DNA of 31,808 nt from a virus: positions 1 through 31,808 of the IMG/VR virus record IMGVR_UViG_3300024177_000018; one strand, given 5' to 3'. Below the pieces are notes generated by a model, which was not told where the DNA came from, did not search any database, and was given only the letters and a program-made list of their open reading frames with translations. A program made the translations under genes and the position numbers. Shown here piece after piece: positions 1 to 28,935 of this stretch (within the stretch, counting starts at the first letter, position 1; each line of letters begins with the position of its first letter).

Positions 1-123
1 AAGGAGGATCCATTGCGAGACATCGAGAACCTCGTCTGGGCCTCATGCCAGGAGTACAGGCCGATCCAGGAGGAGGAAGGAGTCACGATCTTCGATATTC
101 TGGGGGTAGAAATAGGGAGATAA
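1..123 (+). CDS. C-terminal end of a small protein carrying the DPLxDI tag (partial)
   Basis: Frame 1 is open from the window edge to a TAA at 121-123, giving 40 residues; the true start lies upstream. Residues 3-16 read DPLRDIENLVWASC, a copy of the 14-residue tag found in seven other proteins of this window. Here it is followed by about 24 more residues instead of ending the protein. The next gene starts 4 bases after the stop, so the two are probably co-transcribed. Function unknown. The shared tag and the tight spacing make the reading frame credible. Confidence 0.6.
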   Translation, partial: KEDPLRDIENLVWASCQEYRPIQEEEGVTIFDILGVEIGR

Positions 124-127
124 CGCT

Positions 128-1069
128 ATGCGAGCAGAGGATTTCCTTCCGCCGATACTGGTCCAGGAGCTGTTCAGGATCTATCGTGAGAATCCTAATT
201 GGCTTAGGGTCGAGCACGTCAAGGAGTGGGAGTATTCCTGTCATTTCCCGAAGAAGTTGACTGTCCATCCCATCGTGGCCCCTGGGCTGAAAGATCCTTC
301 CGATTGCCTTGCCTATTATTCAGTCTCGAAATGGCTCGGCGACGGCCCGAAGGTGTTCCGCCCGTCCCTTTCTCATTTCGAGCTGCTTGCCGAGGCCGAG
401 ATTCGCTTGCCCCCGGACCAGTACCAGCAACCTTACCCAGCCATGCTGACCATCGTGCCGAAGGGATTCTGCGAGACGCAGACGGCCGTGCTGATCTACC
501 ATCAGCAGGTGAAGGATAACCCCTCGCACGATATCATGGTCATTTCCTCGTGGTCTAAAGGGAACGAGGAGGATATGATCAACACGATCAAAATCGGCGT
601 CGAGAATAGCATGGAGGAGGCTATCTGCCGTTGGCGGGATCCGGAGACACCGGCCATGCGAGAGGCGTTGGATTGCTTCAGGGCGGCCCTGAATGGGAAT
701 ATGCTCTTGGCCAAGCACAGAACCCTGACCAGGCCATTGCACCCGGCCGAATTCGAGAACAATCGCAAGCTATTGGCCAGGGGCGGCGAGACCGAAAAGC
801 GGGCCAGGGAGCGAATGGTAGGCGACCTGCGGGAGGTATGCTTCTGCTCGGAGGTCCAGAAGCGGTTCGACGAGCGGATCGTCAAGCCGTGGCAAGGGGG
901 AACGCACGCCCGGCCCCGGCCCCATTGGCGATCCGGGCACGATAGGATGGTCCCGTGCGGGCCTGGCGGGAAGGACAGGAAGCTGATGCATTTCGACCCG
1001 GTGTTTGTATGCGGGGAGGATTTCGCGGGGGACGCCAGGGATATCAAGGTCGAGCTGGTGGGGAAATAA
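128..1069 (+). CDS. 313-aa protein with an R-x-H-W-R-x-G-H motif, possibly AcrVA2-like
   Basis: Long intact frame of 313 residues. The first two thirds are not recognised. The last 60 residues contain ARPRPHWRSGHDR, then a Gly/Pro/Gly-rich turn, RKLMHFDPVFV and a short tail. This arrangement (PHWRxGHxR, GPGG, KL-x-x-x-x-P-x-x-V) is what I remember from a widespread phage and plasmid family, some members of which are annotated as AcrVA2-like anti-CRISPR proteins. That assignment is from memory and covers only the C-terminal part. The start at 128 lies just after the preceding stop and follows GAGATAACGCT, a weak ribosome site. No signal peptide or membrane segment. Confidence 0.75.
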   Translation: MRAEDFLPPILVQELFRIYRENPNWLRVEHVKEWEYSCHFPKKLTVHPIVAPGLKDPSDCLAYYSVSKWLGDGPKVFRPSLSHFELLAEAEIRLPPDQYQQPYPAMLTIVPKGFCETQTAVLIYHQQVKDNPSHDIMVISSWSKGNEEDMINTIKIGVENSMEEAICRWRDPETPAMREALDCFRAALNGNMLLAKHRTLTRPLHPAEFENNRKLLARGGETEKRARERMVGDLREVCFCSEVQKRFDERIVKPWQGGTHARPRPHWRSGHDRMVPCGPGGKDRKLMHFDPVFVCGEDFAGDARDIKVELVGK

Positions 1070-1071
1070 TC

Positions 1072-1305
1072 ATGAAGCAGCAGTTGACGAACGCCGAGCG
1101 AAGGAAGCGGAATCTGTCCCGCAAAATACGTCTGCTTGAGAACGGATGGCAGGAGATGAACGAAAAGCGGTATGGGAACGACCGCTGGTTCCACCCGCGA
1201 CTGGCCGTCACCGGGCTGTGCTTCGCCAAGGCGTGGAAAGCGTACAAGAAGAGCGATCCGTTTGCAAACGTGGCCGACCTGGTAGACCGCGCTTGCAGGG
1301 AATAG
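1072..1305 (+). CDS. 77-aa basic protein ending in the DPLxDI-type tag
   Basis: Start ATG at 1072, two bases after the previous TAA; the frame is also open upstream but that part overlaps the previous gene in a poor reading. The N-terminal half is strongly basic and probably helical (NAERRKRNLSRKIRLLENGW), suggesting nucleic-acid or protein binding. Residues 62-75 are DPFANVADLVDRAC, followed only by Arg-Glu, so the recurring tag is C-terminal here. Function unknown. The gene closes an upstream operon: the next gene has its own strong promoter at 1327-1356. Confidence 0.7.
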   Translation: MKQQLTNAERRKRNLSRKIRLLENGWQEMNEKRYGNDRWFHPRLAVTGLCFAKAWKAYKKSDPFANVADLVDRACRE

Positions 1306-1326
1306 CAGATTTTTCCCATATGCCCC

Positions 1327-1400
1327 TTTACTTCTGATGGTACAGTTACCTATAATCAGATGTAGGGGAAACGAACCATCTTTTGAAGGGGGATTGGATT
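1327..1400 (+). promoter_or_regulatory. Promoter-leader cassette 1
   Basis: Sigma-70-type promoter with -35 TTTACT at 1327-1332, an 18-base spacer ending TTACC, and -10 TATAAT at 1351-1356. A conserved leader TGTAGGGGAAACG begins at 1361, and TTTTGAAGGGGGATTGGATT runs up to the ATG at 1401. Three other copies (1816, 4555, 24669) share the -35, the ACC before the -10, the GTAGGG block and the GGGA-N-TGGAT block before the start codon. The two GGA cores near the start resemble CsrA target motifs. Confidence 0.85.
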
Positions 1401-1631
1401 ATGGCTTCCAAGAGCGCGATGTACGCGGCACTGAACAATCGTTTCGACGAACGCGCCCGCTGGCTCATGAACAAGGGCTACAAGTACGAGCACGTCAAGG
1501 ATTATGACATTGAGGTGTTCATCAAGGGCGTCAGGGGATTCAAGCCCCACGTCATCCAGGCCGGGACAGTCATGAACGCCAACGAGGAGGTCTGGGAGGA
1601 CGTCGCCAATCAGGTCATGGATCGCCATTGA
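1401..1631 (+). CDS. Small hypothetical protein, first gene of cassette 1
   Basis: 76 residues from ATG 1401, chosen because the conserved leader of cassette 1 ends there (AGGGGGATTGGATT then ATG). A TTG start 18 bases upstream would sit inside that leader and is unlikely. The protein is soluble and mixed-charge (DERARWLMNKGYKYEHVKDY, then FIKGVRGFKPHVIQAG), with no recognised domain. It is the only gene before the structured intergenic element that begins at its stop codon, so cassette 1 may drive a short transcript: this gene plus that element. Confidence 0.75.
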   Translation: MASKSAMYAALNNRFDERARWLMNKGYKYEHVKDYDIEVFIKGVRGFKPHVIQAGTVMNANEEVWEDVANQVMDRH

Positions 1632-1804
1632 TATTTCGGATCGGGGCCGGACGGCGAGGAGCCGTTCCGGTCCGATAGGATAGTCTCTCCGCCATATTGT
1701 CGCGACGGTATGGCTCATGAGGATAGGGCCAGTCCTCCCAAGGGCTGGACGCCGGGCAAGTGGCCTGATAAGCCAGCAAAACGGCCCCCGATCCGAGATA
1801 TTTT
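1631..1804 (+). ncRNA. Candidate structured RNA / complex terminator after cassette-1 gene
   Basis: Positions 1631-1646 pair with 1786-1801 over 16 consecutive base pairs (one G-U); a bulge and two more pairs extend the helix. Inside are a GC-rich hairpin around 1647-1670 (GGACGGC with GCCGTTCC), a 10-bp hairpin with a CGCG tetraloop at 1691-1714, a 7-bp hairpin at 1729-1748 and a 4-bp hairpin at 1761-1775. Three more T residues follow the closing helix. The outer helix competes with an extended form of the first hairpin. It could be an elaborate terminator, a phage non-coding RNA, or a small element with 16-bp terminal inverted repeats; no target-site duplication is obvious. No convincing open frame lies inside. 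Confidence 0.5.
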
Positions 1805-1815
1805 CATGATGCCCC

Positions 1816-1893
1816 TTTACTTTTAGTGGTATGGATACCTATAATGCCATGTAGGGCAAACGGGACGCAACTTAAAACTCAGGGGAATGGATC
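1816..1893 (+). promoter_or_regulatory. Promoter-leader cassette 2
   Basis: -35 TTTACT at 1816-1821, 18-base spacer ending ATACC, -10 TATAAT at 1840-1845, then TGTAGGGCAAACGGG from 1850 and AGGGGAATGGATC immediately before the ATG at 1894. This leader is 4-6 bases longer than its sisters (TAAAACTCAGGGG replaces TTTTGAAAGGG) but keeps both GGA cores. It probably drives the operon from 1894 to about 4525, where the genes overlap. Confidence 0.85.
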
Positions 1894-2604
1894 ATGCGTA
1901 ACCAAATCGAAGCCGCGAAGACTTTTGTTCAGGCCAATTGCCCGGAGCTGGCCGCTATCCTGGTCCGCGAGGAAGCCGCCAAGGTCCACAGCATTTTCGC
2001 CGACATGTCGCAGCGGCTCATCCGCTGGGGCAGCCTTTCCGAGAAGCAGATCACTTTCGCACGCAAGCTGTACAAAGAGCACCTGGAACGCCAGGCCAAC
2101 GGCGGCAAAACCTCCCGCGAGGCCCAATGGGCCAAGGAAAAAGAGCTTGCCCAGGATTGCCCGGCTGGCCGCACGCAGGTTACAGGCACTGTCCTGAGCG
2201 TCAAGCCGCATGAAAGCCGCTTCGGCACGACGATGAAGATGACAGTCAAGGACGACAAGGGCTTCGTGGTCTGGATGACCATTCCCGCCAGCATCGAGAC
2301 GGTCATCGACGCCTCTTCCGGCTATTGCAGGAACCTCCAGAAGGGCGACCGGATCGAGGTTACGGTCAACGTAACTGTTTCCGATAATGACAGCAAGTTC
2401 GGCTTCGGCAAGCGCCCGAGCAATGCGAAGTGCCTCAGCGGGGCCGACAAGGATGGCTTGGTCTGGAACTTCCGGGACGGACGGTACGAGTCGATGACTC
2501 CGAAGCAGGAAGAGCCCAAGGACGACGGCAAGGCGGTTTACATCGAGGATTATCGGGACGAGCCGACGATGGCGGCCCTGGCCAGCTCAGGGGGCCTGAT
2601 GTAA
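1894..2604 (+). CDS. OB-fold single-strand-DNA-binding-like protein
   Basis: 236 residues. After a helical N-terminal region containing LSEKQITFARKLYKEHLERQ, residues ~105-180 have the strand pattern of an OB fold: QVTGTVLSVKPHESRFGTTM, KMTVKDDKGFVVWMTIP, then a loop and LQKGDRIEVTVNVTVSDNDS. This central block resembles a common phage protein that I know as OB-fold or nucleic-acid binding, often near replication genes. The acidic C-terminus (EEPKDDGK, IEDYRDEP) is typical of SSB-like proteins. The start follows the conserved cassette-2 leader. It is distinct from the gp32-type SSB at 14848, so the phage may carry two OB-fold proteins. The function is inferred. Confidence 0.75.
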   Translation: MRNQIEAAKTFVQANCPELAAILVREEAAKVHSIFADMSQRLIRWGSLSEKQITFARKLYKEHLERQANGGKTSREAQWAKEKELAQDCPAGRTQVTGTVLSVKPHESRFGTTMKMTVKDDKGFVVWMTIPASIETVIDASSGYCRNLQKGDRIEVTVNVTVSDNDSKFGFGKRPSNAKCLSGADKDGLVWNFRDGRYESMTPKQEEPKDDGKAVYIEDYRDEPTMAALASSGGLM

Positions 2605-4525: not shown

Positions 4526-4554
4526 GAAAGATGGCAGATTCTGGCCAGCAGACC

Positions 4555-4627
4555 TTTACTTCCGGGGGTTCGATTACCTATACTGTGATGTAGGGCACAA
4601 CGGACCACTTTTGAAAGGGAATGGATT
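4555..4627 (+). promoter_or_regulatory. Promoter-leader cassette 3
   Basis: -35 TTTACT at 4555-4560, 18-base spacer ending TTACC, -10 TATACT at 4579-4584 (one change from TATAAT), TGTAGGGCACAACGG from 4589, and CTTTTGAAAGGGAATGGATT up to the ATG at 4628. The last 20 bases are identical to cassette 4. It drives one short gene followed by a tRNA-like element. Confidence 0.85.
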
Positions 4628-7045: not shown

Positions 7046-8057
7046 CCGCGCCGTAGAGCAAGCCAGTTGCTTCATATTCCGCAGCGGCTTGGCCCAATCC
7101 TATAACGATGATGTCGCATGTACTATAGCCAGCGGCTTGCCGGAGGAATTTTCCGGGGCCGTGCCCGCCGCGAAATTCCTGGCCTTGCTCTCCAAAATGG
7201 CCGAGGAAGACATCGACCTCGAATGGTCCGACAGCGAGGTCGTCGTCAGCGGCCGGAAGGGCAGGAAATCGGGTTTCCGCCTGGAGGCCGAGATCCTTTC
7301 CGCCGTCGACTCGGTCGAGCAGCCGAAGGAGGAGGAATGGAAGCCGCTGCCGGAGGGGTTCGGCGAGGCGGTGTCCATCGTCCAGGAATGCGCTGGCGAC
7401 GAGAAGCAATTCATCACCAACGTTGTGAACATTCATCAGAAATGGCTTGAGGCCGGGGACGACGTCCAATGCGTTCGGTACAAGATCAAGACTGATGTCA
7501 AAACTCCGGTCATGGTAAGGCAGAAGGCCATCAAGCACGTATCGACCCTGGGCATGACGGAATTCTTCGACGCCGACTCATGGCTCCATTTCCGCAATCC
7601 GCAGGGGCTGACGTTCTCCTGCCGCTGCTTCATCGACCCGCCCTACCCGACCGACGAGATATCCGCCGTCCTGAAGCAGAAGGACGGGCATCCCATGACG
7701 CTGCCGAAGGGGCTGGTCGATTCGGTCGATTTGGCCGAAACGATAATAGCGGGGGACAAGGGCTCGTCGGTGCTTATCAGCCTGAAACCGGGGCGGCTTA
7801 ATTTCAAGGCGGTCTCCTCCGACGGCTGCTGGCACAAGGAGGCCAAGAAGATCGCCTACGAGGGGAACGCGATGTCGTTCTTCATCTCGCCGAAATTGCT
7901 CAAGGATCTGGTGACCAAGCACCACGACGTCATCGTCATGGAGGATAAGCTGCGGGTGGACGGCGGAAGTTACACATATCTCTCATGCCTTGGAATTCCT
8001 GAAGAGGAAAGCCCGGCAGCGGAGCCCGTGGCGGCGATGGCGGATGGGGAGGAATGA
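6972..8057 (+). CDS. dnaN: DnaN-like sliding clamp
   Basis: 361 residues, the usual length of a three-domain bacterial beta clamp. The N-terminal segment (NRAELLAKLQAIQPG, then QASCFIFRSGLAQSYNDDVA) and GAVPAAKFLALLSKM resemble phage clamp-like proteins. The C-terminus has the clamp ending AMSFFISPKLLKDLVTKHHD, VIVMEDKLRVDGG and YTYLSCL. The ring would tether the polymerase encoded at 10427, loaded by the ATPase at 12451. Ribosome site GGAGATACAG precedes ATG 6972, within the csrA frame. Assignment rests on pattern recognition, as clamp sequences are poorly conserved. Confidence 0.72.
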   Translation: MPTKVNRAELLAKLQAIQPGTATHDRAVEQASCFIFRSGLAQSYNDDVACTIASGLPEEFSGAVPAAKFLALLSKMAEEDIDLEWSDSEVVVSGRKGRKSGFRLEAEILSAVDSVEQPKEEEWKPLPEGFGEAVSIVQECAGDEKQFITNVVNIHQKWLEAGDDVQCVRYKIKTDVKTPVMVRQKAIKHVSTLGMTEFFDADSWLHFRNPQGLTFSCRCFIDPPYPTDEISAVLKQKDGHPMTLPKGLVDSVDLAETIIAGDKGSSVLISLKPGRLNFKAVSSDGCWHKEAKKIAYEGNAMSFFISPKLLKDLVTKHHDVIVMEDKLRVDGGSYTYLSCLGIPEEESPAAEPVAAMADGEE

Positions 8058-8362
8058 TGATGATCGAGCAGGAAAATAACGATGGCCTGCCGGTATTGCG
8101 TTTTGACGCCGAGCAGAGTCGCCTGTTCAGGGAGAAGTATCCGGAGTTGTTCATTAAGGAGGAAGCCATGCCTGACCCCAAAAGCAGCCCGCTCTGGCCC
8201 GCGTTCGTATCGCACATGAAGGCGACCTACGGGCGCGATCCCAATTCGCCGAAGGACTTTTCCGACGAGGCACGCAATTCCGATCTATGGGTGGCGTTCA
8301 TCGCCGGGGCCAGGGCCGAGGCAGAGGCCGAGCAGTGTGATCCGGCCGAGGCGTGCAAATGA
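8054..8362 (+). CDS. 102-aa hypothetical protein, possibly two small genes fused
   Basis: ATG 8054 overlaps the clamp stop. An internal ATG at 8168 has a perfect ribosome site (ATTAAGGAGGAAGCC), the same junction as at 3909-3922, but with one extra base so that no stop codon intervenes. The protein may therefore be a fusion of a 38-residue peptide (ending LFIKEEA) with a 64-residue protein starting MPDPKSSPLWPAF, or translation may start at both sites. It ends QCDPAEACK, a degenerate form of the recurring C-terminal tag, and the last codons overlap the next start. Confidence 0.65.
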   Translation: MMMIEQENNDGLPVLRFDAEQSRLFREKYPELFIKEEAMPDPKSSPLWPAFVSHMKATYGRDPNSPKDFSDEARNSDLWVAFIAGARAEAEAEQCDPAEACK

Positions 8363-8604
8363 AACGGACAAGCGAAAAAAGGAAGGCCGATATCCTCCTG
8401 GAATATGGATGGATTCCAGATTCCAAGTCTACGTCTATATTCAGCACGACCTATGCCTTATGGCTTATGCCTGAGCTTGCTTGTCGGAGCAAGCCGATTC
8501 CCCACAGCGAATGGCTTTCTCTTGAAGCGGCTTGGGAGAGGCATAACGAAGAGCACAACCCATTCTATGAGTTGGGGAATCTGGTCGAGGAAGCTTGCAA
8601 ATGA
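8359..8604 (+). CDS. 81-aa hypothetical protein ending in the tag
   Basis: ATG 8359 overlaps the previous TGA. N-terminus basic (MKRTSEKRKADILLEYGW), middle aromatic, C-terminus NPFYELGNLVEEACK: the recurring tag with Asn replacing the first Asp, one residue from the end. The tag codons run into the next start, GCTTGCAAATGA, as at 8351-8362 and 28924-28935. No family recognised. Confidence 0.7.
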   Translation: MKRTSEKRKADILLEYGWIPDSKSTSIFSTTYALWLMPELACRSKPIPHSEWLSLEAAWERHNEEHNPFYELGNLVEEACK

Positions 8605-8879
8605 AGATCAAGCAATATCGCTACAGGCAAATGAAGCCTAAAGTGACATTTAAGGATGCTACCAAGGCGGAGAAGGCCCTTGCCGCGAAGTACACGCGGA
8701 TCAGGAAGGTAGGCAAAGAATACCTTCCCATGCTGGTAGTCGGCGTGCAATGCTTTTGGCTTGAGCCCAGGCGATGCAATAAGGAAGAGGCTTCGTGGGT
8801 TTGCTGGATGATGGCCAAGGCGTTGTTGGCGGTGGTTTTGCAGAAAAGGGACGAGATCGCGATATCGGGGCAATTGTGA
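8601..8879 (+). CDS. 92-aa basic hypothetical protein
   Basis: ATG 8601, four-base overlap with the preceding stop. Basic N-terminus (MKIKQYRYRQMKPK), a central segment VGKEYLPMLVVGVQCFWLEP, and a hydrophobic helix SWVCWMMAKALLAVVLQKRD. This last helix could be amphipathic or membrane-associated, but it is short and charged at the end. No recognised family. Its stop overlaps the polymerase exonuclease start, so it belongs to the replication operon. Confidence 0.65.
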   Translation: MKIKQYRYRQMKPKVTFKDATKAEKALAAKYTRIRKVGKEYLPMLVVGVQCFWLEPRRCNKEEASWVCWMMAKALLAVVLQKRDEIAISGQL

Positions 8880-10156
8880 TGAAAGGATTCTTCTCCTCCG
8901 CTGCGTTGACTACGTCCGTGGCTCTTCCATTAGTCCCTCAATGCGGCAGCTGTGGGCTTTATAAAACATGCCAGTCGCCTAAAATGCCCGTAACGGGCAA
9001 AGGCCGCAAGAAGATACTCGTGCTAGCGGAGGGTCCTGGGAAAGACGAAGACTCTCAAGGCATTCAGTTATGTGGGGCGTCCGGCCAGCACCTGGAGAAG
9101 GCCCTGGCCAAGTTCGGCATCGACATGCGACGCGACTGCTGGCTTTCCAATTCTATTATTTGCCGAGCCACCAACGCGGCGGGAAGCAACCGAGCCCCTA
9201 CCGAGAAGGAAATAGGTTTTTGCAGGCCGAACCTCACCAAGGCGTTGCAGGAACTGAGGCCGAGGACAATCATATGCCTGGGCGAGTGCGCGGTGCAATC
9301 TCTGATCCAGCCGATATTCGACGACGGCGGTGGCTACGCTATAGGACGCTGGGCCGGATGGGATATCCCGTGCCAGAAGCTGAATGCGTGGGTATGCCCT
9401 ACATGGCATCCGGCGTATTTGCTCAGGGAGGCGTCTCCCACCTTGCAATTGCTTTGGGAAGGGCATCTACGGAAGGCTGCTGATCACGCTTTCGGGAGTA
9501 CAGATCCGGTTCTTGGCGACATCAAGAATCTAGTTGATGAGGCATGCGGGGAGGACGGCAGGCCTTGGAAGGAGCCGCCTGATTGGCCCAAAAGCGTGGA
9601 TATCATCCTGGGCGACAAGGAAGCCGCCGAGCGGATCATGCTGATGACGGAGGTAAATGACGGGGCGTTGGCATTCGACTACGAGTCCACATCACTCAAG
9701 CCGGACAGCAAAGACGTTGGGATATTTTGCTGCTCGATCAGTGATGGTAAGAAAGCTATTGCCTATCCCTGGCAGGGGAAGGCGATCAGGGCTACGGAAT
9801 CGTTCTTGCGGTCAAACGTGCCGAAGATAGGTGCGAACGTGAAGTTCGAGTCCAGATGGACGATGGCCAAGCTCAAGATCAGGGTGAGGAATTGGTGGTG
9901 GGATACGATGATCGCGGCCCATATCCTTGATTGCCGTTCAGGAATCACAGGTCTCAAAATGCAGGCGTACTGCAATCTAGGGCAGGGAACCTATAATAGT
10001 CGTGTGGATAGTTTCCTCAAGGCCGAAGGGTCCAATTCGCGGAACAGGATAGGGCAAGCAGATTTGAATGATGTGCTGCGCTATTGTGGACTCGATTCGC
10101 TTCTGGAATATAAGCTGGCGATGAAACAACGAAAACAGATGGGCTATGGGGACTGA
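8879..10156 (+). CDS. Uracil-DNA glycosylase (family 4/5-like) fused to DEDDy 3'-5' exonuclease
   Basis: 425 residues, two domains. Residues ~20-205: Fe-S-type UDG with CGSCGLYKTC (C22, C25, C31), AEGPGKDEDSQG (the G-E-x-P-G motif), and TWHPAYLLR (the HP-x-Y catalytic loop). Residues ~240-425: proofreading exonuclease of family A polymerases with ALAFDYEST (Exo I), GANVKFESRW (Exo II) and LRYCGLDSLLEYKL (Exo III, Y-x3-D). Between them, DPVLGDIKNLVDEAC is a copy of the recurring tag with one inserted residue. In SPO1-type phages a UDG-like domain, exonuclease and polymerase are one chain; here the polymerase is separate at 10427. ATG 8879 overlaps the previous TGA. Confidence 0.88.
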   Translation: MKGFFSSAALTTSVALPLVPQCGSCGLYKTCQSPKMPVTGKGRKKILVLAEGPGKDEDSQGIQLCGASGQHLEKALAKFGIDMRRDCWLSNSIICRATNAAGSNRAPTEKEIGFCRPNLTKALQELRPRTIICLGECAVQSLIQPIFDDGGGYAIGRWAGWDIPCQKLNAWVCPTWHPAYLLREASPTLQLLWEGHLRKAADHAFGSTDPVLGDIKNLVDEACGEDGRPWKEPPDWPKSVDIILGDKEAAERIMLMTEVNDGALAFDYESTSLKPDSKDVGIFCCSISDGKKAIAYPWQGKAIRATESFLRSNVPKIGANVKFESRWTMAKLKIRVRNWWWDTMIAAHILDCRSGITGLKMQAYCNLGQGTYNSRVDSFLKAEGSNSRNRIGQADLNDVLRYCGLDSLLEYKLAMKQRKQMGYGD

Positions 10157-10160
10157 TTCT

Positions 10161-10421
10161 ATGTATGTCAGGATCAAGATTTGCGCCGTGGGAGACCCAC
10201 CGGCGTTCCCGGAATTGCCCAGCGGCATCGAGGGCGAATGTCTGGGCTTCGCCATCCTGGAGAAGGGGACGGCCGGAGGCAAGACATCCTGCGCCATCAT
10301 GACCAAGGGGGCCGACGGTGTTCCTGTTATGGTCCAATTTACCGGTGATATGTTCCTCACGATGGCCGCAGCCCTCAAGGGGGCCAGGGAGCGGTTCGGC
10401 GATCCTTGGGATGGGGTTTAA
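10161..10421 (+). CDS. 86-aa protein between the exonuclease and polymerase genes
   Basis: ATG 10161 chosen because it follows the upstream TGA; an in-frame ATG at 10146 would overlap the exonuclease gene. Beta-rich sequence (MYVRIKICAVGDPPAFPELP, ECLGFAILEKG, TSCAIMTKGADGVPVMVQFT) with a closing helix MFLTMAAALKGARERFG. It resembles small phage proteins of unknown function. Its position between the two parts of a polymerase that is usually one protein suggests insertion into an ancestral fusion, or a role as an accessory subunit; neither is shown. Confidence 0.7.
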   Translation: MYVRIKICAVGDPPAFPELPSGIEGECLGFAILEKGTAGGKTSCAIMTKGADGVPVMVQFTGDMFLTMAAALKGARERFGDPWDGV

Positions 10422-10426
10422 TTCTC

Positions 10427-11857
10427 ATGAAGCAAGCATCTCCCAGGGAAGCGATGGCCTTGTTCATGCGCGGCCAGGTCGCCCTCGCCGAGGTCGAAAA
10501 GGCCGGGATCAGGATCGACGTCCCCTACCTTGACAGGATGATCGAGGAGACAGGCGAGCGGGCCAAGGAGCTTGAAGCTAAACTGAAGGGCGACCCGGCG
10601 TTCAAGATATGGCGGCGGGAGTTCGGCTCCAAGGCGAATCTCGGCAGCGACGCCCAATTGGGCCGGGTGGTCTACGGGAGTTTGGGCTACCCCTGCACGA
10701 CGTACACCTACGGCGGGGCCAAGGGGGAGAAGCGACCGTCCACCAGCGAGGAGGCTCTGAAGAACGTGGATTTGCCGTTTGTCAGGGATTGGCTCGAATG
10801 GCAGCGGCTCAAGGACAAGGTGCATACGACCTACCTGAAGGGGATACGGCGGGAGGTGGTTGACGGGTTCCTCCATCCGTCATTCAACTTGAATACGGTA
10901 ATTAGTTTCCGAAGTTCTTCGAGCTCGCCGAATTTCCAAAACATACCCGTGCGGGATCCGAAGTACGCCAAGCTGATCCGTACGGCGTTCATCCCCCGCG
11001 ATGGCTGCCTGATCATAGAGAACGATTTCAAGGCCGCCGAAGTGACCCTGGCCTGCATTTACACAGGGGATCCTGTTCTTGCCGAGTATATCACAAATCC
11101 CAAGAAGGACATGCACAGGGATTGTGCCCAGAAGCTGTTCTTCTGCAAGGGGCAGCCTAGGGAATGGTGGAAGAAGAAGGGGCCAGGGGGCGGGGCCGAC
11201 GTTCGCTACACGGCCAAGGGGGATTTCGTTTTCGCCAGCTTCTACGGCAGCTATTACATCCAGACGGCCCAGCGGATGTGGGACCAGATGGAGGAGATGG
11301 AATTGGCCGTCGGCGACGTGCCGATGCGGGAATGGATGAAGCAGAACGGCATCGGGGAATTGGGGGATATGGATCCAAACGAGCGGCCCAGGGACGGGAC
11401 GTTCGAGAAGCATGTCAAGGAATATGAGGACTGGTACTGGAATGAGCAATATGTCGTCTACTCGCAATGGAAGCGGGACTGGTATCAGGCGTACCTGAAC
11501 AACGGCTATTTTGATACGCTCACCGGATTTCATCATGAGGGGTACTTCAGCCGCAACCAGGTGCTTAATTACCCCATTCAAGGAAGCTCGTTCCATTGCC
11601 TCCTCTGGGTCATGTGCGAGATGATTGATTGGCTCAAGAAGAACAAGATGCGGAGCAGGGTTATCGGACAGATACATGATAGCTTGATAGCTGATGTGGC
11701 CCGCAACGAGAAGGACGATTACCTCCAGAAATTGAGCCAGCTTGTTCGGGTCGATATCCGCAAGCATTGGCCTTGGATCACGGTCCCGCTGACAATCGAA
11801 TGCGAGTTGGCCTACGAAAATTGGTTCTCGAAAAGCGAATTCCCGATGCCGGTATGA
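10427..11857 (+). CDS. polA: Family A DNA polymerase, polymerase domain only
   Basis: 476 residues. Motif A: IENDFKAAEVTLACIYTGD, with the first catalytic Asp (usual form DYSQIELR). Motif B: RYTAKGDFVFASFYGSYY, with the conserved Arg, Lys and Tyr-Gly. Motif C: GQIHDSLIADV, where the usual HDE is HDS, seen in some phage enzymes. FRSSSSSPNFQNIPVRD is the template-contact segment. There is no exonuclease domain; that activity is in the 8879 gene. Start ATG 10427 lies 5 bases past the preceding stop; an upstream in-frame ATG at 10406 overlaps it. It makes the phage DNA together with the clamp and loader. Confidence 0.92.
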   Translation: MKQASPREAMALFMRGQVALAEVEKAGIRIDVPYLDRMIEETGERAKELEAKLKGDPAFKIWRREFGSKANLGSDAQLGRVVYGSLGYPCTTYTYGGAKGEKRPSTSEEALKNVDLPFVRDWLEWQRLKDKVHTTYLKGIRREVVDGFLHPSFNLNTVISFRSSSSSPNFQNIPVRDPKYAKLIRTAFIPRDGCLIIENDFKAAEVTLACIYTGDPVLAEYITNPKKDMHRDCAQKLFFCKGQPREWWKKKGPGGGADVRYTAKGDFVFASFYGSYYIQTAQRMWDQMEEMELAVGDVPMREWMKQNGIGELGDMDPNERPRDGTFEKHVKEYEDWYWNEQYVVYSQWKRDWYQAYLNNGYFDTLTGFHHEGYFSRNQVLNYPIQGSSFHCLLWVMCEMIDWLKKNKMRSRVIGQIHDSLIADVARNEKDDYLQKLSQLVRVDIRKHWPWITVPLTIECELAYENWFSKSEFPMPV

Positions 11858-11872: not shown

Positions 11873-11945
11873 GCGCTGATGGGGCAATGGTAGCCCGCCC
11901 GCTTTTCCAGGCGGGAGGAGGCGGTTCGATTCCGACCTCAGCGCT
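11873..11945 (+). tRNA. tRNA-Gly-like element with an 8-base anticodon loop
   Basis: Acceptor GCGCTGA 11873-11879 with TCAGCGC 11938-11944, 7 perfect pairs. D arm GGGC-AATGGTA-GCCC, typical of glycine tRNAs. Anticodon stem CCCGC 11898-11902 with GCGGG 11911-11915 enclosing TTTTCCAG, eight bases; TCC (Gly) or TTC would be read depending on frame. T arm GGTTCGATTCC with a 5-bp stem if A11935 is bulged. No CCA encoded. It sits 15 bases after the polymerase stop and is open in the frame of the downstream Mom-like gene. Confidence 0.7.
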
Positions 11946-11964
11946 TCAGCTTAGGTTCGTCGAA

Positions 11965-12438
11965 GTGCCAATGGTATACGCCCAAAAGATGAATGAGAGA
12001 TGGCATAGCCTCTTGCCAAGGACGGATTTGGGGAATCTGCTTTGCGGGAGCATCAGCGTAGCCTACGTCGCCGAATGGGAGGGCATGTACTATGCCATAG
12101 CGATATACAGCCAACCGATTATTAGGGCGGTAGCCAAAGACGGCAAGACATTGGAGCTTCGGAGATTAGCCATATGTAAGGAAGCCCCGAAGAACACCGC
12201 GTCCAGGATGATGGCCATTACCAAAAAGCTGGTTAAGAAAAAGTACCCGTTTCTGAAGCGGATAATAAGCTATCTGGCTGTTGACGTTCATAGCGGGACG
12301 ATTTACAAGGCGGCTGGGTGGAAGCCGGTAGGGAAGGTAGTAGACGCCCGGCCGCAGAGGAAGTTCGGAGACAAGAATCGGGCAACAGGTCCATTGCAGA
12401 CAAAGTCCAGAAAACAGCGGTGGGAAATTAAACTTTAG
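11965..12438 (+). CDS. mom: Mom-like DNA-modification protein (GNAT fold)
   Basis: The core ELRRLAICKEAPKNTASRMM, a basic helix KKLVKKKYPF, IISYLAVDVHSGTIYKAAGW and KPVGK match the phage Mu Mom family, whose members modify adenine in phage DNA to a carbamoylmethyl form and so evade restriction. Start uncertain: GTG 11965 and ATG 11971 are the first starts after the tRNA-like element, but the frame stays open through that element to ATG 11854, which overlaps the polymerase stop. The strand LRFVEVPMVYAQKM, which other Mom proteins have near the N-terminus, begins before GTG 11965. The basic C-terminus is typical of DNA binding. Confidence 0.72.
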   Translation: MPMVYAQKMNERWHSLLPRTDLGNLLCGSISVAYVAEWEGMYYAIAIYSQPIIRAVAKDGKTLELRRLAICKEAPKNTASRMMAITKKLVKKKYPFLKRIISYLAVDVHSGTIYKAAGWKPVGKVVDARPQRKFGDKNRATGPLQTKSRKQRWEIKL

Positions 12439-14685: not shown

Positions 14686-14903
14686 TGCCGAATGAGACTA
14701 CCCTATGGCTTTTTGGGGGCGTATGCTTCACCCTGATCCTGCTGCCCATGTCCGTATACTTATGCTTCAAAGCGGCCCGCCTGGGCTACCTGAAGGCGAA
14801 CAAGCAATTCGAGGATCTGAAGTCTTCTTTTGAAAGGAAAGGTACTGATGAGCCAAACGAGACGCGAAAAGGAAAGGGAAACACAACGCCGGACGTCGGC
14901 TAA
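14685..14903 (+). CDS. 72-aa single-span membrane protein
   Basis: ATG 14685 shares its A with the preceding TAA. Residues ~7-30 (LWLFGGVCFTLILLPMSVYL) form one transmembrane helix, followed by a basic and polar cytoplasmic-looking tail. Layout fits a small inner-membrane protein; the role is unknown. Its last 56 bases overlap the SSB gene in another frame, which is unusual for this compact but rarely deeply overlapping genome. Confidence 0.6.
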   Translation: MPNETTLWLFGGVCFTLILLPMSVYLCFKAARLGYLKANKQFEDLKSSFERKGTDEPNETRKGKGNTTPDVG

Positions 14904-16440
14904 GGATTGGGCTAACGAGGCGTCCAAGGGATTCACCCCGACGGCGGTCCAGCTGCCAGAAGGCATGGATTGGTTCAACGTCAAGTCCGGGGACGACGGT
15001 AAGGCCAACCAGATGGAAGTCGATTTCATGCCGTTCCTGGCGGGCAAGGGAAATCCCAGGGCCGACGAAGGCATCGAGCATTTCGAGCGGACCTACCATA
15101 CCCACCGCATCCCGACCGCCAACGGCAAGTCCGCCGTCTACTGCTGCCTCTGGGAATGCTTCGCGGTCAAATGCCCGGTCTGCGAATGGGTCAACGCCCA
15201 CAAGGAGGATTCCTTCGGCAGCGAGGCGGAAACCGATAAGCACAAGAAGTTCATCAGCGACATCAAGGCCAAGATGCGTCATCTTTGGCTGGTGAACAAC
15301 AAGCCCGGCGACAAGAGCAATAAGCTGCGGGTCTTCGAGACGAACGACTGGAACAAGGGGATGGGCTTCCGCGAATTGATGGTGGACGCCATCAACAGCA
15401 GCGAGAAGAACGCGGATTTCTCGTCCTTGAAGAACGGCATGACCGCCATTATGACGGTCAAGCAGCAGCCGGCGTTCGGCAAGGGCAGCAAGCCCTACGA
15501 CGCGGTCACCCGCATCGACTTCAAGGCAAGGGATTACTCCTACCCATCGGAGATGCTGAAGAAGAACCCCTGCCTCGACGACATGCTCATCCCGGCCATG
15601 CCCGCCAAGCTCAAGGGCAAGCCGCTGGTGGAATTCACCAAGGATGATTGGGAACTTTGTTATGAGGAGCTCAAGAACCGCTTCGCCAACGGCGGGGTCG
15701 ACGAGGACGAGGGGGAGAAGGAGGAACGGAAGCCGACCAGCCGGGGCGTGGACGCAGATGATGATGGCGATACCCAGGAACGCAACAAGAAATCCAAGAA
15801 GCGTCAGGAGGAAGAGGACGCCGACGCGGACGATTCAGACGTGGTTGATTCCGATGTCGCAGACGATGACGACGCCCCGCCCGCCAAGAAGGGCAAGAAG
15901 CCCGCAGCCGACGATGATGACGATGACGGGAACGATTCGGCGACCGTCGATTCGGATACCGACGATCCTACCGCCAAGGAGAGGGGCATCAAGGTCGGCT
16001 CGAAGGTCAAGCACAAGAGGCACGGCAAGTGCGATGTACTCAAGGTCAGCGGCGATGGGACCTCCCTGACGCTGGAGGACGAGGACGGCGACGAGTTCTC
16101 CGGCATCGCCCCCAGCGAGGTCGAGCTGGTTGGCAAGAAGGCTGATGCGGAGGATGATGGGGATGACGCGGACGATGACGCTGATGATCCCCCCAAGGGC
16201 AAGAAGGCGGCGTCGGACGACGATGACGATGCGGATGACTCAGCGGTAGTCGACTCCGACGTCGCCGACGAGGACGCAGATACCGACGATTCTGCTGTGG
16301 TCGATGACGACTCGGACATCGTCGCGGATGATTCGGATCTCGCGGACGACGATGGCGACAAGCCGGCGAAGAAGGCGTCCACCAACGGCAAGTCCGCCAA
16401 GGCTACCGACAAAGACAAGAAGACGGTCAAACAGAAGTAG
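14848..16440 (+). CDS. gp32-type single-strand DNA-binding protein with a ~240-residue acidic tail
   Basis: 530 residues. The core carries H86-x12-C99-x9-C109-x2-C112, the exact spacing of the zinc ligands H64, C77, C87, C90 of T4 gp32, followed by an OB-fold-like region to ~residue 290. After that comes an Asp-rich tail far longer than in gp32. It has repeats such as DDSDVVDSDVADDD and DDSAVVDSDVADED, and a separate ~50-residue SH3/KOW-like module (IKVGSKVKHKRHGKCDVLKV, SLTLEDEDGDEFSGI) near residues 377-429. The last residues are Lys-rich. SSB tails recruit partner proteins, so this one may be a large interaction platform. Ribosome site TTTTGAAAGGAAAGGTACTG; an ATG 18 bases upstream is less likely. 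Confidence 0.88.
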   Translation: MSQTRREKERETQRRTSAKDWANEASKGFTPTAVQLPEGMDWFNVKSGDDGKANQMEVDFMPFLAGKGNPRADEGIEHFERTYHTHRIPTANGKSAVYCCLWECFAVKCPVCEWVNAHKEDSFGSEAETDKHKKFISDIKAKMRHLWLVNNKPGDKSNKLRVFETNDWNKGMGFRELMVDAINSSEKNADFSSLKNGMTAIMTVKQQPAFGKGSKPYDAVTRIDFKARDYSYPSEMLKKNPCLDDMLIPAMPAKLKGKPLVEFTKDDWELCYEELKNRFANGGVDEDEGEKEERKPTSRGVDADDDGDTQERNKKSKKRQEEEDADADDSDVVDSDVADDDDAPPAKKGKKPAADDDDDDGNDSATVDSDTDDPTAKERGIKVGSKVKHKRHGKCDVLKVSGDGTSLTLEDEDGDEFSGIAPSEVELVGKKADAEDDGDDADDDADDPPKGKKAASDDDDDADDSAVVDSDVADEDADTDDSAVVDDDSDIVADDSDLADDDGDKPAKKASTNGKSAKATDKDKKTVKQK

Positions 16441-19108: not shown

Positions 19109-19302
19109 GAATGGAATGCGGAGGTGTTTTGATTTGGTGTCCGGGCGATTTGCACCGCACGAGATGGGTTTGCGACCGTTGCGGGGCCAATTGGTACGTG
19201 CTACCTTACAAAGACTATAGGGTCAGTTTTGCCTGTACGAGCAAAGAGAAAGACCCTTTGAGGGACATAGCCGACCTGGTTCCCAAAGCGACTAAGGATT
19301 GA
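19105..19302 (+). CDS. 65-aa zinc-finger peptide ending in the tag
   Basis: ATG 19105 overlaps the RecA-like stop (ATGA). Cysteines CGG near residue 5, CPG at 12 and CDRCG near 23 suggest one zinc site, followed by WYVLPYKDYRVSFACT. Residues 50-63 are DPLRDIADLVPKAT, the recurring tag with Thr for Cys, then Lys-Asp and the stop. A longer frame would overlap the RecA-like gene. Function unknown. Confidence 0.7.
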   Translation: MRMECGGVLIWCPGDLHRTRWVCDRCGANWYVLPYKDYRVSFACTSKEKDPLRDIADLVPKATKD

Positions 19303-21791: not shown

Positions 21792-22007
21792 ATGAGCACA
21801 ACAGTAAAATTTTATTGCGGGGACGAGCTATTGCTGACTGCTGACCATATGGCTATCGTGCCGATGGTCGGGGACCTCATATCGACAAACGAAAAATTGT
21901 GCATGCGGGTGCTGGCCAGGGATTTCAGGATGATCAGCAGCTATCTCGACGAGGTTCGGCTGATCGTCGATCTTGTCCCCAGCAGAAAGGCGTGCGAGAA
22001 TGAGTGA
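21792..22007 (+). CDS. 71-aa hypothetical protein
   Basis: TAAGGAAATACG before ATG 21792. Beta-rich start (STTVKFYCGDELLLTADHMA, VPMVGDLISTNEKLCMRVLA) and a charged end. It overlaps the next gene by eight bases. No family recognised; small proteins with this TTVKFYxGDxLL layout are frequent in phages. Confidence 0.6.
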   Translation: MSTTVKFYCGDELLLTADHMAIVPMVGDLISTNEKLCMRVLARDFRMISSYLDEVRLIVDLVPSRKACENE

Positions 22008-22275
22008 TGCAGACAGGCAATTGATCGACCGGATCGTCAACGGCACGAATAATGCCGACCCGTTGGCCGACATCAAAGACCTGGCGGACGGGATTGACGA
22101 GCCCATCCTGATGGCGATCATTAAAAACCTGGATACATTGGTGGTCGGATTGCTGAAGAAGAACCTGTCGATCTCATTTTCCAAGACTTCAGAGCATGGT
22201 GGGGCCGACCTTGGGCTATACGTTACGTACAATGGCCATACGATTTCCAATTCAACTATTCGCCTAGGTCTTTGA
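22000..22275 (+). CDS. 91-aa protein with an N-terminal copy of the tag
   Basis: ATG 22000 overlaps the previous stop; an upstream in-frame ATG at 21973 is less consistent with spacing. Residues 20-33, DPLADIKDLADGID, match the first nine positions of the recurring tag and then diverge; here it lies near the N-terminus. The rest is beta-rich (LVVGLLKKNLSISFS, DLGLYVTYNGHTISN). Function unknown. Confidence 0.65.
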   Translation: MSDADRQLIDRIVNGTNNADPLADIKDLADGIDEPILMAIIKNLDTLVVGLLKKNLSISFSKTSEHGGADLGLYVTYNGHTISNSTIRLGL

Positions 22276-24654: not shown

Positions 24655-24668
24655 TCCCGCCGAACCCC

Positions 24669-24739
24669 TTTACTTCTTAACCCCAGCAACCTATAATCAA
24701 ATGTAGGGGAAACGAAACACTTTTGAAAGGGAATGGATT
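24669..24739 (+). promoter_or_regulatory. Promoter-leader cassette 4
   Basis: -35 TTTACT at 24669-24674, a 17-base spacer ending CAACC, -10 TATAAT at 24692-24697, TGTAGGGGAAACG from 24702, then ACACTTTTGAAAGGGAATGG just before the ATG at 24740. Same -35, -10 and leader as the three cassettes near the left end, 20 kb away. Confidence 0.85.
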
Positions 24740-25309: not shown

Positions 25310-25325
25310 GTGAAAGGATCGGATC

Positions 25326-25934
25326 ATGGGAGTCGACACCTGCCTGAAGCTGCCTGCCGCCGTCCAGATCAAGGACGTGGCCAACGCCATCGGCATCCTG
25401 CTGGGCAAGAAGAAGACGTGGACTGATTGCTCTGACAGCGATAGCACGCGAGCAGGATTGGCCCAGCCCACCGAGCACGGCTGGGCCAACGTCGAGGGCG
25501 TGTCGATGAATGCCGCCAACACGCAGGTCGCATCGGCCGAGATCGTCATCGCCGACATCCCGAAGAAGTACGGCAGCGGCTGGTGGTTGCTTTACCATTT
25601 CGAGTTCGGCAATGACGGGAGCCGTGGCATGATCGGCCGCTCCAGGGCCGAGCGGATCTGCCTGCACAAGAGGCTGGCGGAATTCTTCGGCGGGGAATGC
25701 GACTATAATGACTGTGATTCCATTGACCCTGACTACAAGGGCAAGCCCCCGAAATGGCTGGGGAAGACCGGAGACCCCGAATTCCACGCCAGGCAGATGG
25801 CCCTATGGAACCTCAAGCCGATGACGCGCAAGGAGATCGAGGATTGCGAGCAATATGCTTCGTACAAGAACGAGCGGCAGCCCGACCCCTTGCAGGACAT
25901 CGAGGAATTGGTCGAGAAGGCGTGCGCATCGTGA
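25326..25934 (+). CDS. 202-aa protein ending in the tag
   Basis: GAAAGGATCGGATC before ATG 25326. MGVDTCLKLPAAVQIKDVAN and IGILLGKKKTW start a globular protein of the phage/plasmid unknown class; GWANVEGVSMN, SGWWLLYHFEFGNDGSRGM and RLAEFFGGECDYNDCDS follow. It closes with a charged helix and DPLQDIEELVEKACAS, the best match to the tag consensus, two residues from the stop. Function not recognised. The tag may attach it to a common partner. Confidence 0.75.
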   Translation: MGVDTCLKLPAAVQIKDVANAIGILLGKKKTWTDCSDSDSTRAGLAQPTEHGWANVEGVSMNAANTQVASAEIVIADIPKKYGSGWWLLYHFEFGNDGSRGMIGRSRAERICLHKRLAEFFGGECDYNDCDSIDPDYKGKPPKWLGKTGDPEFHARQMALWNLKPMTRKEIEDCEQYASYKNERQPDPLQDIEELVEKACAS

Positions 25935-25948
25935 CGAAAGGAGCGGCT

Positions 25949-26466: not shown

Positions 26467-26494
26467 TTAGACTTGGTTTCTTGATCGTTCAAAA

Positions 26495-26517: not shown

Positions 26518-26543
26518 CTAATACTACGGCTGGCTAGGGTGGG

Positions 26544-26597
26544 TTGGTGAGTCTCCCATTCTAGTCAGCTGGGTATTCCGATCAGGAGACTCACCAA
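26544..26597 (+). promoter_or_regulatory. 13-bp hairpin holding the recombinase ribosome site
   Basis: TTGGTGAGTCTCC (26544-26556) is perfectly complementary to GGAGACTCACCAA (26585-26597). The right arm contains AGGAG, the ribosome site, and ends at the first base of the ATG (26597-26599). If the stem forms in the mRNA, the start is hidden. The inverted repeat could also be a DNA site for the recombinase itself. Confidence 0.65.
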
Positions 26598-27334
26598 TGC
26601 AGTACCCTTCCGGGAATGGATCCCGTTGTGAAGCCATTCGGCGTAAAGAACGCCTAGCAATTCTCGCAGCAGAAATCAAGAAAGAAGAGCCGGCTCAAGC
26701 AAGCCTATACATCGAATGCCTGGATGATTTGCCGCCAGGGGCGCAGGTGGTCTTGTATTGCCGTGTATCGACATTAGGCCAGAGTTTGGCCGCCCAATTG
26801 GCGTATTGCCTGAAAAGCCTCAAGGAAAAGGGGATGCGTTTGATAGGGAAGCCGTTCCTGGAAACGGCCAAAGGATACGACCTATCGAGGCCCCTTTTCA
26901 GGAAGGCAATAAAATACGCCAGGAAAAACAAGTCCGTTCTAGTGGCGAGGTCGATAGGGAGGATACTGCGATCCCCGTTCCTGTCCAGGAAGTACCCGTT
27001 CGCGTTGCCTACGGAAGATCAATTCAAGGAATTGATGGGGATAACAAAGGGAGTAAGAATGGCCACCATAATCTACCCGGATATATCGACGGAAGAGGAA
27101 AGGAAGATCGAGAGCGAAAAGCCGGATAAGGGAAAGGGCGGTAGGGGCGTTAAAAAGAGGAAAAGAAAGGGCGGACGATGGAGATGGAAGAGGAAGCTAT
27201 TGCCGTTTGTCATGGCGGAACGGAATAACGGGGAGACCTACCGGGGCATTTCCGAGAAAATCGCTGCCGAGTTCGATCATAGCCTCAGTGAAATGACCAT
27301 ATGTAGGTGGTGTAGGGAGGCCGGAATAAACTAA
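26597..27334 (+). CDS. Serine recombinase (resolvase/invertase-like)
   Basis: 245 residues. VVLYCRVSTLGQSLAAQLAY is the catalytic N-terminal motif (nucleophile S58 in YCRVST); SVLVARSIGRILRSPF is the later R-rich catalytic helix segment (usual DRLxRS). A basic linker (KGKGGRGVKKRKRKGGRW) leads to a C-terminal HTH (GETYRGISEKIAAEF, LSEMTICRWCREAG). Enzymes of this type cut and rejoin DNA through Ser-DNA bonds. There is no large zinc-ribbon domain as in phage integrases. Lower GC, AGG/ATA-rich codons and flanking inverted repeats suggest an insert in the operon. Whether it acts on phage DNA or as part of a mobile element is unclear. Confidence 0.82.
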   Translation: MQYPSGNGSRCEAIRRKERLAILAAEIKKEEPAQASLYIECLDDLPPGAQVVLYCRVSTLGQSLAAQLAYCLKSLKEKGMRLIGKPFLETAKGYDLSRPLFRKAIKYARKNKSVLVARSIGRILRSPFLSRKYPFALPTEDQFKELMGITKGVRMATIIYPDISTEEERKIESEKPDKGKGGRGVKKRKRKGGRWRWKRKLLPFVMAERNNGETYRGISEKIAAEFDHSLSEMTICRWCREAGIN

Positions 27335-27495
27335 CTTTCCCGTAGGGGGCTTATTAACGGTTTCCGCCGGGTACAAGATTACGGGATATTAGCCGTTTTC
27401 CTAGCTGGGACGTTATTTCGGACAGTAAAAAGAAGGGTCGTTAAAGTTACGATAATAGGATCAGTGGAAGCTGCAACATTTGGAGGGAGCAAGAC
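27335..27495 (+). promoter_or_regulatory. Gap after the recombinase: inverted repeats and a possible promoter
   Basis: TCCCGTA (27338-27344) pairs with TACGGGA (27380-27386), and AACGG (27356-27360) with CCGTT (27393-27397), followed by TTT. GATAAT at 27451-27456 may be a -10 (no -35). GGAGGGAGCAAGAC precedes the ATG at 27496. These features could mark the right edge of a recombinase insert. Nothing else is seen in these 161 bases. Confidence 0.35.
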
Positions 27496-28482
27496 ATGCG
27501 TCAGGGCATCACGCTGATCGACAGGTTCATTGGCCTCCTCGATGGAGGCCCAGGCAAGAAGCGGCGGGCGACCAGGGAATGGTTCGAGCTTACCGACGAG
27601 GAAAGGGAGAAGCTGGCCCCGGAGCTCACCGGCAGGGGCTATCCCATTCCGATGCGGGCGAAAAAGAAGCAGAGCACGGGCAAGAAGATCCCGCCCCTTA
27701 CCGAGGACGAGAGCCAATCCCTGGCCGAGATGATGTGGGAGGTCCGCAGCATGGACCCGACGCTGACCTTCCAGGAATTGGTGGGCAGGACCCAGGAGGC
27801 ATTGCCCAAGGAGAAGCGGCGGAAGCAGGTCGTCGCCAAGCATTACCCCCGCGTCATCGAGATTCTCAAGAAGATCGACGGGGATCATTCCCGCCGGGCG
27901 ACTATGGAGACCGGCAAGTCCAAGGAGGAGGTATTGGAATCGCTTTCCGACCAGGACATGCAATCCCTCGTCCCCCGCGTCATGCCGATGATCGACATCG
28001 AGGCGGTCATCCAATCGCATCCGGCCAACCAGCTTCTGGAGTACGTGCCGCTGCCGTCCATTGTCACGTACCTGGTGATGAAGGGATTGGACAACTGGAA
28101 CGACGGGCAGGTCAAGGCCGGCATGATGCTCAAATCCGCCGTATCGAGCCTCCAGGTGCTGGCCGAGAAGGGCGAAGCCAAGCCGCAAGGGACCATCGCC
28201 CAGCACGCGGCCCTGCCTAAGATCATGGTCGTGGGGCTGCTGCCGGATCAGCAGAACATCGTCTATGGGGCCGTGGGCAAGAAGGCGTCCCTGACATTCA
28301 TCGACAAGAACCGGGCCACGAACATCTTCACCAACAACCAGAACGTGGTGATTTTGATGGCCAATTTCATTGACCACGGCCTCCAGAACCACATCAAGAG
28401 TCGGATTACCAACGGCACGTCGATGGTGATCCACCACGGCGGCGTGTCGAAATTGATTGAAAGGATTCAGGGGCTGGTCTAA
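27496..28482 (+). CDS. 328-aa protein with DUF2325-like C-terminal domain
   Basis: GGAGGGAGCAAGAC is a strong ribosome site. N-terminal ~230 residues are helical and charged (DDE-x-x-LAEMMWEVRS-type segments), with no recognised domain. The last ~95 residues, LPKIMVVGLLPDQQNIVYGA, LTFIDKNRATNIFTNNQNVV, ILMANFIDHGLQNHIK and then a GG-S-K-L ending, resemble DUF2325, a Rossmann-like domain of unknown function. A long opposite-strand frame covers this gene but is a shadow. The gene may form an operon with the next small genes and the primase. Confidence 0.72.
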   Translation: MRQGITLIDRFIGLLDGGPGKKRRATREWFELTDEEREKLAPELTGRGYPIPMRAKKKQSTGKKIPPLTEDESQSLAEMMWEVRSMDPTLTFQELVGRTQEALPKEKRRKQVVAKHYPRVIEILKKIDGDHSRRATMETGKSKEEVLESLSDQDMQSLVPRVMPMIDIEAVIQSHPANQLLEYVPLPSIVTYLVMKGLDNWNDGQVKAGMMLKSAVSSLQVLAEKGEAKPQGTIAQHAALPKIMVVGLLPDQQNIVYGAVGKKASLTFIDKNRATNIFTNNQNVVILMANFIDHGLQNHIKSRITNGTSMVIHHGGVSKLIERIQGLV

Positions 28483-28493
28483 GGAGACACGAA

Positions 28494-28706
28494 ATGATCC
28501 TGTTCAATCAATGGCGGAAGTACCGGAAAGTCCAACAATCTGGCCAGTATAATATGATTACGCAATCGACCCAGGCGGCGAGGGCGGCTGGATTGCCCAT
28601 GAGTGCCTACATGGAAATCATCGAGAACTATTCCGAGCTCGCCGAGCGGTTCGAGAAAATGGAGAGGAAGGCTGCCGATGGCGAAAAAGGAAGTAAGCGA
28701 CCATGA
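28494..28706 (+). CDS. 70-aa hypothetical protein
   Basis: AAGGAGACACGAA upstream of ATG 28494. MILFNQWRKYRKVQQSGQYN, then MITQSTQAARAAGLPMSAYM and ENYSELAERFEKMERKAA. This MITQSxxAARAAGLxxxxYxxxxENYSEL pattern is one that I recall from other phages, function unknown. It overlaps the next gene by 29 bases. Confidence 0.65.
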   Translation: MILFNQWRKYRKVQQSGQYNMITQSTQAARAAGLPMSAYMEIIENYSELAERFEKMERKAADGEKGSKRP

Positions 28707-28935
28707 TCTGCGACGCGCTTTGAAGATCCAGATGAAGATGGGCTGGGGCGTTATACATACGGGAAGGGGATGGTCGGCTTTAGATGATGACGGTGTGGGC
28801 GTAACCCCAGAGGAATGGCCTTATTGGCCCGACCCTGCGACCGCGATCATCAAAGACTATGCTTGGTGGCTGGAGAACGAGTGCAAGGATCCTTTGCAAG
28901 GCGTGGCGGATTTGGTGGAGAAAGCCTGCGAATGA
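28678..28935 (+). CDS. 85-aa protein ending in the tag
   Basis: ATG 28678 after GGAAGGCTGCCG; the upstream in-frame ATG lies inside the previous gene. MAKKEVSDHDLRRALKIQMK, GWGVIHTGRGWSALDDDG and a Trp/Pro-rich middle (EEWPYWPDPATA), then DPLQGVADLVEKACE at the very end, a good copy of the recurring tag. Its last codons overlap the primase start (GCCTGCGAATGAGC). No family recognised. Confidence 0.72.
   Translation: MAKKEVSDHDLRRALKIQMKMGWGVIHTGRGWSALDDDGVGVTPEEWPYWPDPATAIIKDYAWWLENECKDPLQGVADLVEKACE

Follow-up and report, generated by a model that had tools for sequence, protein, structure and literature searches.

Why should eight proteins of one phage, otherwise without evident kinship, carry the same 14-residue peptide, mostly at the end of the chain? 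The question was raised by an initial annotation of IMG/VR virus record IMGVR_UViG_3300024177_000018, of which positions 1 to 31,808 form the stretch of DNA analysed here (the window, 31,808 nucleotides (nt)). We find that the peptide, here called the tag (consensus DPLxDIxxLVxxAC), is real and much more numerous than that annotation stated, that selection acts on its amino acids and not on its DNA, and that it is probably a lineage-specific amphipathic helix that docks many accessory proteins to, or targets them at, one partner.

The eight peptides are exact translations of the DNA at the positions first reported. They are listed below with their genes and with scores from a profile trained only on the copies of a second, sibling contig, IMGVR_UViG_3300024177_000032 (29,244 bases).

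7-48, plus strand: tag DPLRDIENLVWASC, 28.3 bits; gene truncated by the 5′ end of the window, with 24 residues downstream of the tag
1072-1305, plus strand: small orphan gene, 77 residues, tag at its end
1255-1296, plus strand: tag DPFANVADLVDRAC, 30.2 bits; stop 2 residues later
8054-8362, plus strand: gene with a terminal CDPAEACK, not a full copy and perhaps an internally deleted tag
8359-8604, plus strand: small orphan gene, 81 residues, tag at its end
8557-8598, plus strand: tag NPFYELGNLVEEAC, 28.0 bits; stop 1 residue later
8843-10156, plus strand: UDG plus 3′-5′ exonuclease protein, tag separating its two domains
9503-9547, plus strand: tag DPVLGDIKNLVDEAC, 25.1 bits; internal, in the linker, within an insertion of about 22 residues
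19075-19302, plus strand: small orphan gene, tag at its end; alternative start TTG at 19129
19252-19293, plus strand: tag DPLRDIADLVPKAT, 28.7 bits; stop 2 residues later
22000-22275, plus strand: orphan gene, 91 residues, degenerate tag close to its N terminus
22057-22098, plus strand: degenerate tag DPLADIKDLADGID, 19.3 bits
25326-25934, plus strand: orphan gene, 202 residues, tag at its end
25884-25925, plus strand: tag DPLQDIEELVEKAC, 39.7 bits; stop 2 residues later
28678-28935, plus strand: small orphan gene, 85 residues, tag at its end; its stop overlaps the primase start
28888-28929, plus strand: tag DPLQGVADLVEKAC, 32.1 bits; stop 1 residue later
31768-31808, no strand assigned: 41-base identity with the end of IMGVR_UViG_3300024177_000032

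The sibling-trained profile regains all eight copies well above background, at 19-40 bits against 3.9 bits for the best other peptide in any window gene. The top score in 200 shuffled proteomes was 16.9 bits (mean of maxima 7.6), below the weakest window copy, and profile scores against shuffled open reading frames (ORFs) and proteomes exclude a chance origin of the motif. Placement is also as first described, with five copies one or two residues from a stop codon, one (9503) in a domain linker and one (22057) near an N terminus. Two weaker hints fared less well: DPFYDTLKWLLSCH scores −3.2 bits and was rejected, and CDPAEACK is not a full copy but may be an internally deleted one.

How many copies does the phage carry? 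A back-translated DPLxDIxxLVxxAC pattern was run over 2.9 million IMG/VR contigs. In its strict form it matched a single contig, the sibling, about 12 times; without the Asp-5 requirement it again matched that contig alone, and without the final Cys it added six further contigs with one background-like match each. The 41-nt overlap sits exactly at both contig ends, as would a junction in an assembly graph, and is crossed by a glycine-rich open frame on the minus strand (merged 31687-32373). Because the ends are identical over 41 bases, the joined orientation places nearly all genes of both contigs on one strand, G+C contents agree (56.5% and 55.9%) and a promoter-like repeat is common to both, the sibling contig very probably continues the same phage genome, an assignment drawn from the overlap and not from spanning reads. 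The merged sequence of window and adjoining contig, to which coordinates marked 'merged' refer, is 61,011 bases long and incomplete; no contig in IMG/VR extends past the 5′ end of the window.

A profile scan of these 61 kb gives 38 copies at 16 bits or more, 30 of them on the adjoining contig. The next-best score is 10.1, and the highest bin in 20 shuffled-ORF sets is 12. The eight copies reported at the outset are thus genuine, but their number was too low by far, at least 38 being present; tagged genes make up roughly a quarter of the genes called on the phage fragment. All 38 copies lie on the plus strand in the reading frame of a gene, and none was found in other frames, on the opposite strand or outside genes. 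The copy ends within 12 residues of the stop in 34 of the 38 and within five in 31, with one to eleven variable residues trailing the C-terminal tags. Internal copies occur in the UDG-exonuclease linker, in an ORF at sibling-contig position 1842 (merged 59170) and at the 5′ end of the window.

Is the conserved object the peptide or the DNA beneath it? Two copies that share a residue encode it by different codons 56.3% of the time; the figure expected if codons were drawn independently from the codon usage of the phage is 57.8%. Information per nucleotide is 1.16 and 1.39 bits at codon positions 1 and 2 and 0.49 bits at position 3; mean DNA identity among copies is 61%, and conservation of the DNA stops at the tag plus the ensuing stop/start overlap. 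Because the choice among synonymous codons is as random as in independent draws, the peptide is what is conserved: the constraint acts at the protein level, and the selection first proposed from codon differences between copies is confirmed by these statistics. The same saturation rules out one recent DNA duplication, the origin that would have undone that proposal, for all but three pairs of copies. The copies fold as RNA with energies no different from those of synonymous recodings (mean z 0.18) and so give no sign of a DNA or RNA hairpin element.

The proteins that carry the tag are, for the most part, as unrelated as they had seemed. After removal of the tag, one pair of bodies is alike at E ~1e-4 (39889/40199) and a few pairs are weakly so; among 35 tagged proteins, no two match the same Pfam or PHROG family. 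The bodies range from zinc-ribbon-like (by eye, with paired CxxC) to the UDG-exonuclease. Where a body matches a PHROG family well, as two do, the match ends upstream of the tag (residues 2-76 of 99 and 3-79 of 98), and the second match reaches the very end of its profile. The UDG-exonuclease, which has relatives in 62 of 94 fetched loci, shows how a tag is acquired in this case: the 15 tag columns are empty in 30 of 30 aligned homologues, relative to which the window protein carries about 22 extra residues at the tag site, so that the tag is an add-on, a clean insertion. In most relatives the UDG-exonuclease and the polymerase (window 8843-11857) are separate genes; in several, such as L076, L059 and L081, they are apparently fused in a frame of about 850 codons.

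How far does the tag extend beyond this phage? The profile found none in 80 polymerase-related loci, whose polymerases are at most 46% identical to that of the phage, and the only loci with a good profile score were those fetched by the motif pattern. The relatives found are distant, their best protein matches being about 45-49% identical and free of the tag, and no nearer ones turned up; an all-against-all comparison of other recurrent C-terminal peptides in them gave low-complexity look-alikes only. Scans with the polymerase or terminase as single proteins led to nothing besides the sibling contig and a single distant relative. The strict pattern had no match in the GTDB collection of genomes; a looser one matched each listed contig once, often in Rhodobacteraceae, at an apparent background level. 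A host-encoded tag was rejected on these results. No other phage or bacterium searched carries a comparable label set, and the tag appears restricted to this lineage as far as the collections show. No published description of such a tag was found in the literature on tags, targeting and docking.

The form of the peptide fits the single amphipathic helix that had been predicted. Its hydrophobic moment has a maximum at 102 degrees per residue, a helical value (z 2.8 against shuffled columns), and L3, I6, V10 and A13 fall on the a and d positions of two heptads. Asp-Pro is a common helix cap. The mean net charge is −2.1, unlike that of basic membrane-targeting helices. An AlphaFold model of the UDG-exonuclease from a 32-sequence alignment (mean predicted local distance difference test (pLDDT) 91.1) places the tag (residues 208-222) as a seven-residue helix, 209-215, at pLDDT below 50, loose between two confident domains. 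A single-sequence fold of a small tagged protein was too poor for use (mean pLDDT 49), and among solved structures the best match to the tag was a designed coiled coil at E 0.65.

What might such a helix do? The best reading, and in our judgement a probable one, is that the tag is a lineage-specific amphipathic docking or targeting helix through which many accessory proteins reach one partner. It would be a short helix with an Asp-Pro cap and with L3, I6, L9/V10 and A13/C14 on one face, appended, mainly at the extreme C terminus, to small accessory proteins of various kinds, at least 30-odd in number, and inserted also between the domains of the UDG-exonuclease. Its hydrophobic face would presumably fit a groove on a common partner, which may be a phage hub, the virion core or a host protein, and through that groove unrelated proteins would reach one place; binding to one common partner is what we infer. 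A more ambitious version, which we hold tentatively, is a dedicated address-label system, in which a module carried by more than 30 accessory proteins and by a repair/proofreading protein directs all of them to one structure or hub that the phage builds, new genes enter by gaining the label, and label and receptor lie outside described families. If the tag is a docking label, its single receptor would give access to dozens of orphan phage proteins at once, accessory genes would be recruited by a short label and not by evolving new interfaces, and the scale of recruitment would exceed that of T4 capsid-targeting sequences.

Several observations weigh against docking. The genome at hand is incomplete, and no receptor for the tag was identified; nor was a major capsid, scaffold or head protease gene recognised in the 61 kb. 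All copies come from one genome, so that the conservation is among copies and not between phages. Relatives manage without the tag, which must then be dispensable for the general life cycle. Three pairs of copies (merged 37191/41720, 44458/59170 and 25884/44642) have DNA identities of 88-93%, so that copying or conversion must in part be recent. Finally, codon use at Ala-13 deviates from that of the genome, perhaps from overlap with the ribosome site of the next gene.

Short shared targeting peptides are already known; the number of carriers here is unusual. The tag resembles encapsulation peptides, capsid-targeting sequences and clamp-binding motifs and, as far as tested, is a member of none. 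Encapsulation peptides of bacterial microcompartment cargo are amphipathic helices of 15-20 residues with one hydrophobic face, joined by a flexible linker to cargo termini (PMC11157265). The tag shares the amphipathic helix at the cargo terminus. Microcompartments involve metabolic enzymes and shell proteins; no shell protein was recognised among the phage genes searched, which come from an incomplete genome. The beta-clamp binding motif, too, is a short linear motif; it occurs in unrelated proteins that bind one hub, either in their C-terminal tails or in internal loops, and is defined as Q-aliphatic-x-[L/M]-[F/L] or Q-aliphatic-x-[L/M]-x-[F/L] (PMC11139829); neither Gln nor Phe is conserved in the tag, which does not fit that definition. 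The nuclear import of Chimallivirus (PicA/Imp1) sorts many phage proteins to one place, as proposed for the tag, and recognises its cargo without a terminal signal sequence (PMC12908238).

Where would the tagged proteins go? With simple gene calls of our own, tags are present in 26 of the 41 genes in merged 32,000-46,000, compared with 8 of 80 elsewhere. This 14-kb block contains both halves of the large terminase, ATPase and nuclease, as judged against the intact protein of Thermus phage Riverbug:

L008 5317-6234 and 2280-3164 (merged 40279-41196 and 43349-44233), minus strand in L008: large terminase split into ATPase and nuclease genes

Between the halves lie eight small genes, seven of them tagged. 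The relative L102 likewise encodes the two halves in separate frames, directly adjoining there, so the small genes were inserted in the tagged lineage or lost in L102. The terminase nuclease ORF of L102 (10758-12518) contains an apparent intein.

One particular form of docking, capsid targeting, draws on this arrangement: tagged proteins would be taken up by the prohead and later injected together with the DNA, for host takeover or anti-defence. It is a possibility to which we give limited credence. With 26 of the 34 tagged genes in the terminase block, seven of them between the terminase halves, and with bodies that are small, diverse orphans, there is a precedent in the internal proteins of T4, which are diverse and reach one destination through a common short capsid-targeting sequence (PMC3012670, PMC9026906). 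That sequence, however, is N-terminal, is cleaved by the head protease, serves few cargoes and is unrelated to the tag, which is C-terminal in 34 of 38 copies and internal in others, has more than 30 carriers, many for cargo kinds, and gives no evidence of cleavage. A tagged UDG-exonuclease fits capsid targeting poorly, as does the failure to find the head genes mentioned above.

The replisome hub suggested at first finds no specific support. Among the 34 called tagged genes one is replicative, and the genes for polymerase, clamp, clamp loader, primase, RecA, SSB and FEN carry no tag. Given the concentration of tagged genes near the terminase genes, a label for packaging into the virion is no less probable; the UDG-exonuclease copy, for its part, favours a replisome or takeover hub.

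Could the tag instead be a C-terminal degradation signal, by which a protease clears a set of phage proteins together? The 31 copies within five residues of a stop suit this idea, but we consider it unlikely because internal copies exist, in the UDG-exonuclease linker, the merged 59170 ORF and the 5′ end of the window; moreover, the residues after the tag vary in number and kind, and the motif requires an amphipathic face and not a defined free terminus.

A selfish in-frame repeat, spreading without serving its genes, is quite unlikely. Rickettsia palindromic elements are, like the tag, repeated coding segments scattered over unrelated proteins, and PARCELs are repeated coding segments dispersed in unrelated proteins (PMC2996958). 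Some pairs of copies are near-identical over the tag DNA alone (41 nt at 97.6%; 41 nt at 92.7%), and the UDG-exonuclease copy is a clean insertion. But PARCELs form tandem arrays of 25-residue repeats with dyad-symmetric DNA, whereas the tag occurs as single 14-residue copies with randomised codons and shows neither the arrays nor the symmetry. No copy is off-frame, on the other strand or outside a gene, synonymous sites are saturated while the peptide is kept, and hairpin potential is not above that of synonymous recodings. Even as a spreading repeat, the tag would be unusually constrained as protein.

Descent from one old gene family, its bodies diverged beyond recognition around a retained C terminus, is very unlikely: the 39889/40199 pair and the few weaker ones point that way, but the bodies run from zinc-ribbon-like to UDG-exonuclease, two of them match different PHROG families, and the UDG-exonuclease copy was clearly inserted. 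Hardly credible, finally, is a by-product of DNA function (a ribosome site or stop-start overlap that serves the following gene, or a boundary at which gene cassettes are shuffled by recombination), which could appeal to 4- or 1-nt overlaps with the next gene in 15 of 34 tagged against 19 of 84 untagged genes, to the Ala-13 skew and to the seven tagged genes between terminase halves that adjoin in a relative, but is contradicted by 61% mean DNA identity with codons scrambled like independent draws and by a peptide that is the same in internal copies and in copies distant from the next gene.

The promoter-like repeat common to the two contigs, CCTTTACTT...ACCTATAAT...ATGTAGGG, stands upstream of genes in five copies and looks like a phage-specific promoter or control element:

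Window 1325-1394, 1814-1883, 4553-4622 and 24666-24735: repeat copies
Merged 48638 (sibling contig about 12374-12333, minus strand): repeat copy

Elsewhere in the window, ARAGORN reports a tRNA-like gene at 11873-11945 with a four-base anticodon reading (ttcc), and a Mom-like DNA modification protein lies at 11887-12438. An SSB-like protein at 14848-16440 has a long, acidic, repeat-rich C-terminal half, and a protein of the phage genome at L007 10062-10937, minus strand, resembles PHROG transposase families.

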